A stretch of 64,000 nt of DNA from Halococcus qingdaonensis. Its GTDB lineage: Archaea; Halobacteriota; Halobacteria; Halobacteriales; Halococcaceae. This document shows positions 20,288 through 23,044 of this stretch, piece after piece (position 1 is the stretch's first letter; the number at the start of each line of letters is the position of its first letter). Under the pieces are notes generated by a model, which was not told where the DNA came from, did no database searches, and saw nothing but the letters and a program-made list of their open reading frames with translations. Position numbers and translations under genes: made by a program. The stretch lies in contig NZ_CP101943.1 in the NCBI RefSeq assembly GCF_024508235.1, positions 2,329,112 to 2,393,111 on the forward strand, written 5' to 3'.

Positions 20288-20740
20288 GTGGCCATTACGG
20301 ACAAGATATACGTCAAGAACCACCGCCGGATCGGCTCGCAGCTCGAAACGCGTATTCCACGAAGCGCGTTCAGCGGTGCGACCCTCGACCTGCTTTACAC
20401 CGGTGAGAACCTCGCGAAGCTCGACGATGCCACCCAGGAGCGCGTGCTCGACTTCGCCGAGGACTTCCTCGACTGTGACTGCGAGTCGAACCCCTACTGT
20501 GGCCACCCCGAACGCAAGTTCGTCCAGTATCTGCTCGATCTCCGCGCGGGCGGGCTCGGCGCGGAGGCGATCGTCGACATCATGAGCGACGACTATCTCG
20601 TGACCGCCTATCCGGGCGACGTGCTCTCCTTTCTCGATAACTCGGTGCGCACGCTCGACGCGATGGAGGATCTCGCGAGCGTCGAGAAAAACCGGGAGAT
20701 GGAGCGCCGAGTGGGCGAGCGAAAGCGCGATCTGCTCTAA
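20288..20740 (+). CDS. DUF5814 family protein
   Basis: A 150-aa protein beginning VAITDKIYVKNHRRIGSQL from a GTG at 20288; a TTG ten codons earlier is less likely. A Cys cluster CDCESNPYCGHPERKF near residue 68 suggests metal binding, and the C terminus is a charged helix. The same domain is, as I recall, found attached to archaeal Ski2-like helicases, and a Ski2-like helicase lies 3 kb away. Function unknown. It is convergent with the next gene by a four-base overlap. Confidence 0.65.
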   Translation: MAITDKIYVKNHRRIGSQLETRIPRSAFSGATLDLLYTGENLAKLDDATQERVLDFAEDFLDCDCESNPYCGHPERKFVQYLLDLRAGGLGAEAIVDIMSDDYLVTAYPGDVLSFLDNSVRTLDAMEDLASVEKNREMERRVGERKRDLL

Positions 20741-21147
20741 CCGAGTCGGTACGGCTCTTCCTCGTCCTCGCCATCGAGCTCTTCGAGCTGGATCACGTCC
20801 TCGCCGTCCTCTTCCTCGTCGAGGCGCTGACTCAACTGGGTGACGTACCGGCGATGTTCGTCGAGCTGGTCGCGGAGATGGTCGGCTTCGAGTTCGAGGC
20901 GCTCGTGCTCGCGAACGTAGCTCTTGGGCACCTCGACCTTCGGCGGAAAGCTCGACGTCTCCACGTCGCCGTCGTCGACTTCGTGCTCGGGGACGACCTC
21001 GACCTGTCCGTCGTGGGCAACCAGCATCTCGACGTAGTTCCGAAAGACCGCCGACAGCGAGATATCGCGCTCCTCGGCGATCTCGCGCAGCGTCTCGAAG
21101 GCGTCCTCGTTGACGCGAAAGGAGATCGTCTTGTTCTTGTTGCCCAT
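20737..21147 (-). CDS. Ribbon-helix-helix protein with C-terminal coiled coil
   Basis: A 136-aa protein. Residues 1-45 (TISFRVNEDAFETLREIAEERDISLSAVFRNYV) read as a ribbon-helix-helix DNA-binding domain of the CopG/MetJ type. Residues about 85-115 are a heptad-like coiled coil (LELEADHLRDQLDEHRRYV), followed by a very acidic tail. It is likely a dimeric DNA-binding protein or nucleoid-associated regulator; its targets are unknown. Confidence 0.68.
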   Translation of the reverse strand: MGNKNKTISFRVNEDAFETLREIAEERDISLSAVFRNYVEMLVAHDGQVEVVPEHEVDDGDVETSSFPPKVEVPKSYVREHERLELEADHLRDQLDEHRRYVTQLSQRLDEEEDGEDVIQLEELDGEDEEEPYRLG

Positions 21148-21215: not shown

Positions 21216-21809
21216 TCAGTCGCTCTCGGCGGCGACCTCGTCGTCTTCTTCGAGGCTTTCGAGCGCCGACACCGCCTCGCGGCGGTAGTTCTCCAGCGGC
21301 AGGTCGTACCGATTTTCGGCCATCCGGGCGTACTCGTTTGTCTCGTCCTCGAAGGCCTGGATCCGCTCGATCGTGCGCTCGGCGGTCTCGACCACCCAGC
21401 GATCGCGCGTGGCGGCGTCGACGACCGTGATCGACTCCGGCCGGACGGCGACGTTCGTGTCACCGTCGTCGGTCTCGTAGGTCCGCGGTTTGCCCGCCAC
21501 CGCGACGTACTCCGGGGGCTCGATCTCCCGGAGCGCGCTCGCGGCTTCGGGCTGGTACTGGCCGGCGTAGACGTAGAAGGTCCCGGTCGGGTCGACCACG
21601 CGCCCCTGCCAGTATTCCGAATCCGAGCCGACGTCCTCGGTCTCGGTCAGCGTGCCGACGAAGAAGATCCGATTGGCGCGCGCGCCCGTCGGCAGGAGGA
21701 GGTAGACCGGCGCGCGCTCCTCGTCGCTCTCCTTGAACGTGTCGCTACCGTCGCTGAACTCGCGGGCGAAGACGCGTTGTGCGACCTCGCGGGTGGGTGC
21801 GCCACTCAT
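21216..21809 (-). CDS. rpap3: RPA-associated protein Rpap3 (OB-fold)
   Basis: A 197-aa partner of the archaeal single-stranded-DNA-binding protein RPA. It has an OB-fold core (RIFFVGTLTETEDVG, YWQGRVVDPTGTFYVYAGQY) near residues 45-105 and an acidic C terminus. In Haloferax the rpa3 and rpap3 genes form one operon; here rpap3 starts within the last four bases of rpa3, so translation is likely coupled. Confidence 0.85.
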   Translation of the reverse strand: MSGAPTREVAQRVFAREFSDGSDTFKESDEERAPVYLLLPTGARANRIFFVGTLTETEDVGSDSEYWQGRVVDPTGTFYVYAGQYQPEAASALREIEPPEYVAVAGKPRTYETDDGDTNVAVRPESITVVDAATRDRWVVETAERTIERIQAFEDETNEYARMAENRYDLPLENYRREAVSALESLEEDDEVAAESD

Positions 21810-23044
21810 AGCGACCTCGCTTTGATCAGCGTTTCCTCGGCATCGGCCGGCCCGCCGAGTACCTCGAACTCGTTGGCGAGCACGTACCGCCCGAGCGTCG
21901 GCCCCTCGACGCGGTAGTAGCTCCCCAGGACGTCGTCACGGATCTCGTCGGCGACGACGGTCGTATCGAGTGCGTCCATCGCCATCTCCTTGGCCTCGTC
22001 GAGGTCGATCCCCGCGAGCTCCTCGGTCGCCTCCTGATTAAAGATGGTCTCGTGGACCTCGTTGCCGTCGTCGATGACCGCCTTCACGCGGAGGTCGAAC
22101 TCACCCTCGACCTCGCCGTGCTCCGAACAGCGCCCGTTCTGGAGCACGCGCGTGCAGTCGTCCTCGGGACAGCGCTTGATGAGCCCGCTCCCGCGCTGAA
22201 TGTCGACGAGTGCGCCCTCGACGGCGATCGCGTCGTCACCGACTTCGAGCTCCTCGTCGAGCTCCTCGATACCCGTCGTGCGATTGAGTTTGACCGAAAA
22301 CCGCCCCTCGTACTCGTCGGTCACGAGGTTTTCGAGCCGGTAGACGCCTCCCTCGTCGAGTTCGGGGAGGTCGGAGGTCGCCCATTTGGTGAACTTGATC
22401 GTTCCCGAGGGATCGCCCAGCAATCCGACCTGGGCGATCGACTCGCTCCGTGGTTCCCAGAGCTGGCTCACTTTCGCCGTCAGATCGACCCACTCCTCGG
22501 GCGTGTCTATCTCGGTGATTTCGCGCTCCTCGCTCGTCCCGCCCGACTCCGGCACGTCGATCTCCTCGTCGACTTCGTCGATGCTCGTGGTCCGGTTGAG
22601 CTTGACCGAGAACCGTCCCTCGTACTCGTCGGTCACGAGGTTTTCGAGCCGATAGGTGCCGCCCTCGTCGAGTTCGGGGAGATCCGACGTCGCCCACGCG
22701 GTGAACTTGATCGTGCCCGTCTCGTCGCCGAGCAGGCCGACCTGTGCGACCGACTCGCTCATCGGCTCCCAGAGCTGGAGCACCTCGACGGTGAGATCGA
22801 CCCACTGCTCGGGCAGCTCGATGCTCTCGATCGTGCGCTCCTCGCTGTCGCCGCCGAGTTCCTCGCGATCCATGTCCGCCTTATCGAGGTAGCTGCTCGT
22901 GACGCTTCGGCGAGCCTCCTCGGCGGGCACTCTGTACTCGTTGACCAGCGTTTCGAGGCGCTCTTCGACCTCCTCGACGCTGATATCTAGTGTATCGGAA
23001 AACTGGTCGTGTATCTCGGTCGCGTGCTGTTGTACGTCCGTCAT
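21806..23044 (-). CDS. rpa3: Replication protein A (Rpa3) with duplicated OB fold
   Basis: Single-stranded-DNA-binding protein for replication and repair, 412 aa. An N-terminal helical domain (1-65) precedes two near-identical OB folds (81-164 and 185-268; 70 of 84 positions identical) and a zinc finger CPEDDC...C...H near 292-309. As I recall, related haloarchaeal Rpa3 proteins have one OB fold, so the second copy appears to be an internal duplication. The ATG at 23044 (MTDVQQHATEIHDQF) is chosen; the upstream in-frame extension is not family-like. It overlaps rpap3 by four bases. Confidence 0.88.
   Translation of the reverse strand: MTDVQQHATEIHDQFSDTLDISVEEVEERLETLVNEYRVPAEEARRSVTSSYLDKADMDREELGGDSEERTIESIELPEQWVDLTVEVLQLWEPMSESVAQVGLLGDETGTIKFTAWATSDLPELDEGGTYRLENLVTDEYEGRFSVKLNRTTSIDEVDEEIDVPESGGTSEEREITEIDTPEEWVDLTAKVSQLWEPRSESIAQVGLLGDPSGTIKFTKWATSDLPELDEGGVYRLENLVTDEYEGRFSVKLNRTTGIEELDEELEVGDDAIAVEGALVDIQRGSGLIKRCPEDDCTRVLQNGRCSEHGEVEGEFDLRVKAVIDDGNEVHETIFNQEATEELAGIDLDEAKEMAMDALDTTVVADEIRDDVLGSYYRVEGPTLGRYVLANEFEVLGGPADAEETLIKARSL
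22241..22804 (-). repeat. Tandem duplication encoding the two OB folds of rpa3
   Basis: Two 252-bp units, 22553-22804 and 22241-22492, offset by 312 bp and highly similar in nucleotide sequence. Long stretches around YRLENLVTDEYEGRFSVKL are almost unchanged at DNA level, which suggests a recent duplication or ongoing gene conversion. Confidence 0.85.

Follow-up and report, generated by a model that had tools for sequence, protein, structure and literature searches.

The Rpa3 protein encoded in the window, a 64,000-nucleotide stretch of Halococcus qingdaonensis DNA, carries two near-identical tandem OB folds, and this doubling is old, lineage-specific, and common to the whole genus Halococcus and two sister genera. 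The best overall explanation, and one we regard as probably correct, is an old duplication of the OB fold in this lineage, after which both copies were kept and exposed to partial gene conversion, in a protein that would act as a linear ssDNA binder. The original prediction had read the repeat as a sign of recent duplication or gene conversion; as a whole it is supported in part, as a lineage-specific tandem duplication and some gene conversion were found and the recent date was not. Zinc-finger RPAs with two OB folds have been described in Methanosarcina, and the Halococcus Rpa3 is a variant with a changed domain number.

RESULTS AND DISCUSSION

A repeated OB fold in an otherwise ordinary rpa3

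The layout of the gene and its neighbors is given in Table 1. Between residues 81-164 and 185-268 of Rpa3, 70 of 84 positions are identical, exactly the count first reported, against 6.7 on average and at most 19 when the second unit was shuffled 10,000 times. The fuller unit (residues 67-164 against 171-268, ungapped) agrees at 78 of 98 positions, with OB-A and OB-B offset by 104 residues. The claimed closeness in DNA was also borne out, with 205 of 252 nucleotides identical and a 300-nt repeat (22242-22541 and 22554-22853; 79% identity, spacing of 312 nt) that Tandem Repeats Finder describes as 312 x 2.0 with a score of 810. Positions 22241-22804, to which the feature was originally assigned, correspond to residues 81-268, and the repeat proper extends to 22853. 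As had been noted, the N-terminal domain (residues 1-66) and the zinc-finger/C-terminal domain (residues 269-412) are each present in one copy.

Table 1. Features of the rpa3 locus, in positions of the window
Feature	Positions	Strand	Remarks
rpa3 coding region	21809..23044	-	412 codons; TGA stop 21806-21808
N-terminal helical domain, residues 1-66, three main helices	22847..23044	-	model helices 4-15, 23-36, 41-55
OB-A, residues 67-164	22553..22846	-	OB profile match; model strands 81-157; faster-diverging copy in the window
Linker OB-A/OB-B, residues 165-170	22535..22552	-	
OB-B, residues 171-268	22241..22534	-	OB profile and model; copy nearest the single OB fold of other haloarchaea
C-terminal domain, residues 269-412, Cx4Cx8Cx2H zinc-finger motif (C292, C297, C306, H309)	21809..22240	-	
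rpap3 partner gene, 197 aa	21216..21809	-	ATGA: rpap3 start codon overlaps rpa3 stop
Ribbon-helix-helix-like gene (label by eye)	20737..21147	-	often after rpap3; synteny marker, outside the mechanism

The window protein matched NCBIfam profile NF005553 (replication factor A, 311 aa) in two stretches with 629.4 bits, against a cut-off of 353, and a Pfam search of the same protein gave no match above the Pfam cut-offs. A homolog of rpap3 was present at 108 of 110 rpa3 loci examined, two-OB and single-OB alike, and a homolog of the ribbon-helix-helix-like gene at 76 of these 110, which include some genomes twice because two collections were used. The retention of both neighbors across rpa3 loci indicates that the rpa3 of the window is the normal chromosomal ortholog. 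By score, synteny, and tree the protein is an ortholog belonging to NF005553, and its altered OB number makes it a variant rather than a plain member. It resembles Haloferax volcanii Rpa3 (HvoRpa3, D4GZS1) in its score above the profile cut-off (629 versus 353 bits), in the gene order rpa3-rpap3 (PMC8329085), and in a Cx4Cx8Cx2H CCCH zinc finger (PMC3438722), but differs from HvoRpa3 and NF005553 in having two OB folds and 412 aa where these have a single OB fold and 311 profile positions.

An AlphaFold2 model built on 34 sequences (mean pLDDT 79.1, pTM 0.43) places N-terminal helices ahead of two barrels rich in strands, whose strand patterns match, and a mixed C-terminal domain; as the whole-model pTM is low, the packing and arrangement of these domains are not predicted by the model. 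Among the best Foldseek matches are the RPA structures 4gop_C (E 1.6e-15) and 8aaj_A, which we take to be chains of Rpa1/RPA70 subunits. The OB domain of Methanosarcina mazei MM0293 (2ken) was also matched, with a TM-score of 0.84 by target and 48% identity, and OB-B matched the M. mazei OB domain (2kbn/2ken) with an E value of 4.5e-24. The predicted helical domain may correspond to the archaeal AROD domain, which is described at the equivalent N-terminal position (PMC10122647), a name assigned by position and helix content alone. The C-terminal region of haloarchaeal Rpa3 is described as a divergent zinc-finger OB fold resembling DBD-C (PMC8329085, PMC3438722). Taken with this literature, the domain anatomy gives the order helical domain, OB-A, OB-B, and zinc-finger OB-C, which resembles DBD-A, DBD-B, and DBD-C of RPA70. 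In both eukaryotic RPA70 and Pyrococcus abyssi Rpa1 the OB series likewise ends in a zinc-finger OB fold, but identity to these proteins is 14%, the whole-model TM-scores are low, and Pyrococcus Rpa1 has one OB fold ahead of the zinc-finger OB fold, rather than the two of the window (PMC10122647).

Distribution of the second OB fold in Halobacteriales

The two-OB form is not universal. Of 146 Halobacteriales genomes, 141 were matched at E 1e-60, and two-OB Rpa3 was found in 13 of these, all from one family: ten from Halococcus (g1), two from g2, and one from g3. For 127 of the 128 other matched genomes, among the matches listed, the best row begins at residue 156-179 of the query, which is the single-OB pattern; the remaining genome, G043, has its row outside the list. 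Both OB folds are present in 10 of 10 Halococcus genomes, nine of which have the full length of 412 codons, while in G003 the gene ends at the contig end, at residue 303, yet holds both. An assembly artifact as the source of the doubling was ruled out by the agreement of all 10 Halococcus assemblies. For g2, two of four genomes encode two-OB Rpa3 and the remaining two, with completeness of 88% and 77%, had no rpa3 match; the one g3 genome encodes the two-OB form, and all three genomes of g4, the fourth genus of the family, a single-OB Rpa3.

With an OB profile, one OB fold was detected at 89 of 89 haloarchaeal single-type loci (83 distinct OB sequences) and at 19 of 19 further haloarchaeal loci, and none of the 13 two-OB genes had one or three copies; these tables cover best-ranked or hand-chosen loci. 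The statement in the original prediction that related haloarchaeal Rpa3 proteins have one OB fold was correct at all 89 loci and agrees with PMC8329085 and PMC3438722, which describe single-OB HvoRpa3 and two-OB Methanosarcina RPAs. A two-OB Halococcus Rpa3 was not found in the literature searched, the name Halococcus occurring 0 times in the same two papers. In a contig scan, the two-OB proteins among the best 80 of 174 relatives came from Halococcus, including Halococcus thailandensis (L075) and H. morrhuae (L078), from two related MAGs, and, at 46-50% identity, from four members of ANME-2/Methanosarcinales/Methanoperedens.

Single-OB paralogs were observed alongside the two-OB gene. The genome of the window has a second rpa3 with one OB fold and a frameshift near the end of that fold (L002 1498-2423, G000:C1:2019138-2020060; L201), followed by an rpap3-like gene of its own (276 aa). 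The surrounding stretch has 57.9% G+C (window, 65.9%) and contains open reading frames judged by eye to be transposase-like and PIN-like. Some Halococcus genomes, such as G009, which has 23 rpa3 match rows, and G005, hold many such paralogs (L015, L016, L024, L025, L029, L044, L049-L053). In the tree of the non-OB part of Rpa3, the two-OB gene of g1 and g3 has one group of these as its sister (92/87), and a second group diverges deep in the tree. The paralog-rich contigs also encode proteins of 190-224 aa that consist of two OB folds without the zinc finger or the N-terminal helical domain (L044 8022-8718, L045 1743-2439, L030 G005:C27).

An old duplication, probably within the haloarchaeal lineage

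A recent duplication, in the species of the window or its nearest relatives, would be suggested by the 70 of 84 identical residues and 79% DNA identity, but is so improbable as to be practically negligible. The doubling is present in 10 of 10 Halococcus genomes and in three genomes of two sister genera, and the Halococcus A and B copies split by position. In the window, OB-A and OB-B are separated by a dS of 0.70 (0.30-1.51 across Halococcus), whereas for the rest of rpa3 the window differs from G009 by 0.20, from G003 by 0.27 (101 codons), and from the other Halococcus clades by 0.55-0.77, so that the A/B value is about that between clades. At third positions, A/B identity is 0.65 in the window versus 0.64 for cross-species A/B pairs. 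Distribution, dS, and positional clades together refute the recent date, and the DNA similarity of the copies fits protein conservation and codon bias acting over an old divergence.

The OB tree (62 rows, 98 columns), in which, as in the Rpa3 non-OB tree, the single-OB loci are a selection of 25 from haloarchaea and 3 from g4, groups all 26 two-OB copies in one clade (96/87) inside the haloarchaeal single OB folds and apart from those of ANME and Methanoperedens. The Halococcus OB-A (94/90) and OB-B (97/88) copies form separate clades, which indicates that the duplication predates the genus. OB-A is farther from the single OB folds than OB-B (0.65 versus 0.72). The place of the two-OB clade bears on the idea that two OB folds were already present in an ancestor shared with Methanosarcinales and ANME, that most haloarchaea lost one, and that Halococcus and its kin kept both and later homogenized them. 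Such retention would accommodate the two-OB relatives at 46-50% identity in ANME-2 and Methanoperedens and the known two-OB MacRPA2/3 (PMC8329085, PMC3438722), and conversion can wipe out the signal of an old origin. Against it, the A and B copies of the Halococcus clade nest within haloarchaeal single OB folds (96/87) and every other haloarchaeal lineage examined, including g4 of the same family, has one OB fold, so that retention requires several losses rather than one gain; we consider it highly unlikely.

Methanosarcina acetivorans RPA2 and RPA3 also have two tandem OB folds before the zinc finger with an N-terminal region ahead of them, and an Rpap-like gene is present there (PMC8329085, PMC3438722), but their zinc-finger spacing is Cx2C (PMC3438722) versus Cx4C in the window. 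The OB folds of the window nest in the haloarchaeal single OB fold instead of forming pairs with OB1 and OB2 of the methanogen type, in a tree whose rows were from ANME and Methanoperedens rather than M. acetivorans and with a pattern that conversion can mimic.

With the non-OB part of Rpa3 and Rpap3 combined in one tree (44 rows, 409 columns), the genera that have two OB folds fall into a single clade (86/95, not starred), which moderately supports their monophyly, and the 44 rows require no more than two changes of OB state. The Rpa3 non-OB tree alone leaves g2 unplaced and needs three changes, so g2 may represent a second duplication. The simplest reading of these trees would be one gain of the second OB fold, with a second gain in g2 or g3 possible. 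Two or three independent duplications in g1, g2, and g3, instead of one followed by conversion, would explain why identity is 81% within the g3 pair and 59-73% between this pair and copies of the other two-OB genera; why the g3 copies are sisters in the OB tree (100/97); why the 13 B copies as one clade are rejected (p 0.038); and why the OB linker, which is longer in the two sister genera than in Halococcus, differs in length and sequence. Changes of OB number are, moreover, common in the phylum. The single clade of the three genera (86/95), the failure to reject the 13 A copies as a clade (p 0.16), and the partial conversion seen independently within Halococcus all weigh against this reading, which we consider rather doubtful. 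For g3 itself, the sequences support either conversion or a separate duplication.

Partial gene conversion between the copies

Gene conversion, the other half of the original prediction, was found in a restricted form. For the first ~57 codons of the unit (residues 67-123 and their OB-B partners), the Halococcus copies are split A|B with 100/100 support, and a grouping of A with B in the subclade of G004, G005, G001, and G008 is rejected (p 0.0077). For the last ~41 codons (residues 124-164 and partners), the A and B copies of this same subclade group together (98/99) and OB-A as a clade is rejected (p 0.0096). By consensus-site counts, 12 of 13 positional sites are early and 9 of 10 concerted sites late, with 3 cross sites (Fisher p 0.0001). 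The break point was spotted in the data first and tested afterwards, and a permutation in which the cut was searched anew in each shuffle gave p 0.012. The positional 5' part and the species-clustered 3' part support partial conversion in one subclade, which is not that of the window; in the tree of the 3' part, the window's own Halococcus subclade has no resolved grouping.

Concerted evolution of the whole unit in Halococcus was ruled out, as the positional pattern dominates over 45 species pairs, with 901 positional, 291 concerted, and 151 cross sites, or 294, 197, and 115, respectively, at third positions; these pairs are not independent. Among strictly fixed sites of Halococcus OB-A and OB-B, 5 are positional and 0 concerted. 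Near-identical tandem domains need not be recent, since conservation and partial gene conversion can keep the copies alike.

The sequence of events that we favor would begin with an ancient event in which the OB fold of haloarchaeal Rpa3 was duplicated in tandem, in the lineage of Halococcus and the two sister genera. Both copies would have been retained, with OB-B staying nearer the ancestral fold and OB-A diverging by position, and conversion may then have re-homogenized the last ~41 codons in one Halococcus subclade and, in one sister genus, a large part of the unit. The resulting Rpa3 would be a linear ssDNA binder composed of the helical domain, OB-A, OB-B, and the zinc-finger OB-C, paired with Rpap3; pairing of the two proteins is presumed here.

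What the second OB fold may contribute

A Trp and a Tyr are kept in both OB folds (W117 and Y141 in OB-A, W221 and Y245 in OB-B), and W221 and Y245 align with W56 and F79 of SsoSSB (numbering by count from the alignment), residues that affect ssDNA binding (PMC8954794). From homology and these aromatic residues we infer that both OB folds bind ssDNA. Single-OB HvRPA3 binds an 18-mer with a Kd of 24 nM in 3 M KCl, which its authors consider broadly comparable to two-OB RPAs (PMC3438722), so the expected gain from a second OB fold lies in track length or binding modes and not in affinity. The extra OB fold would thus most likely lengthen the bound ssDNA track rather than raise affinity, and the longer ssDNA footprint put forward in the original prediction is plausible.

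It is unlikely that the extra fold instead has no part in ssDNA binding and serves as a spacer or a module for protein contacts, with the N-terminal helical domain or Rpap3 as possible partners. K116 and K119, which flank the Trp and are at least 95% conserved in single OB folds, are gone from OB-A in 12 of the 13 two-OB proteins, so OB-A might bind DNA less well, and the AROD of Pyrococcus RPA reportedly binds an OB fold (PMC10122647). Against such a role, OB-A retains W117 and Y141, the counterparts of the OB-B residues aligned with DNA-contacting residues of SsoSSB, and the two copies are similarly constrained between species (dN to the other subclade about 0.11 for OB-A and 0.12 for OB-B). 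Neither lysine is present in the M. mazei OB fold, and functional loss of OB-A was not upheld on this ground. The occurrence of one- and two-OB Rpa3 in related genera, with the same gene, neighbors, and salt, provides a natural pair for the role of the second OB fold.

OB number across the phylum

The original prediction had added that the repeat could still expand or contract. All 13 two-OB genes have two copies, which gives no sign of this within the family, and OB number does shift over longer times in the phylum: of 31 loci from outside Halobacteriales, one OB fold was counted at 7, two at 19, and three at 5, counts that give no frequencies, as 20 of the 31 were chosen non-randomly for variety in size. 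Among 36 OB folds of 17 proteins (about one per genus), 21 are nearer to an OB fold of their own protein than to those of other proteins. The Rpa1-like proteins of ANME-2, Methanoperedens, and other Halobacteriota (L079, L080, L130, L131, L155, L156, L171, L181-L185) resemble the window protein in that the tandem OB folds of one protein are frequently closer to each other than to those of other genera, but they represent distinct lineages, each with duplications or conversions of its own, and some have three OB folds.

This likeness within proteins makes recurrent gain and homogenization look like a habit of the family. As a tentative generalization, possible rather than probable, the OB number of archaeal Rpa1-like proteins may have been repeatedly re-set by in-frame tandem duplication, intragenic conversion, and loss, such that the length of the ssDNA track is tuned by recombination at the protein's own gene, with Halococcus re-gaining an RPA70-like A-B-C order. 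Three tandem OB folds were observed in the Rpa1-like proteins L181 (G325), whose second and third are 87% identical, and L182-L185 (genus g66). The two OB folds of L171 (G345) are 95% identical and L196 (G305), of the same genus, has one; the two may be paralogs, and the pair is a candidate for a truly recent duplication.
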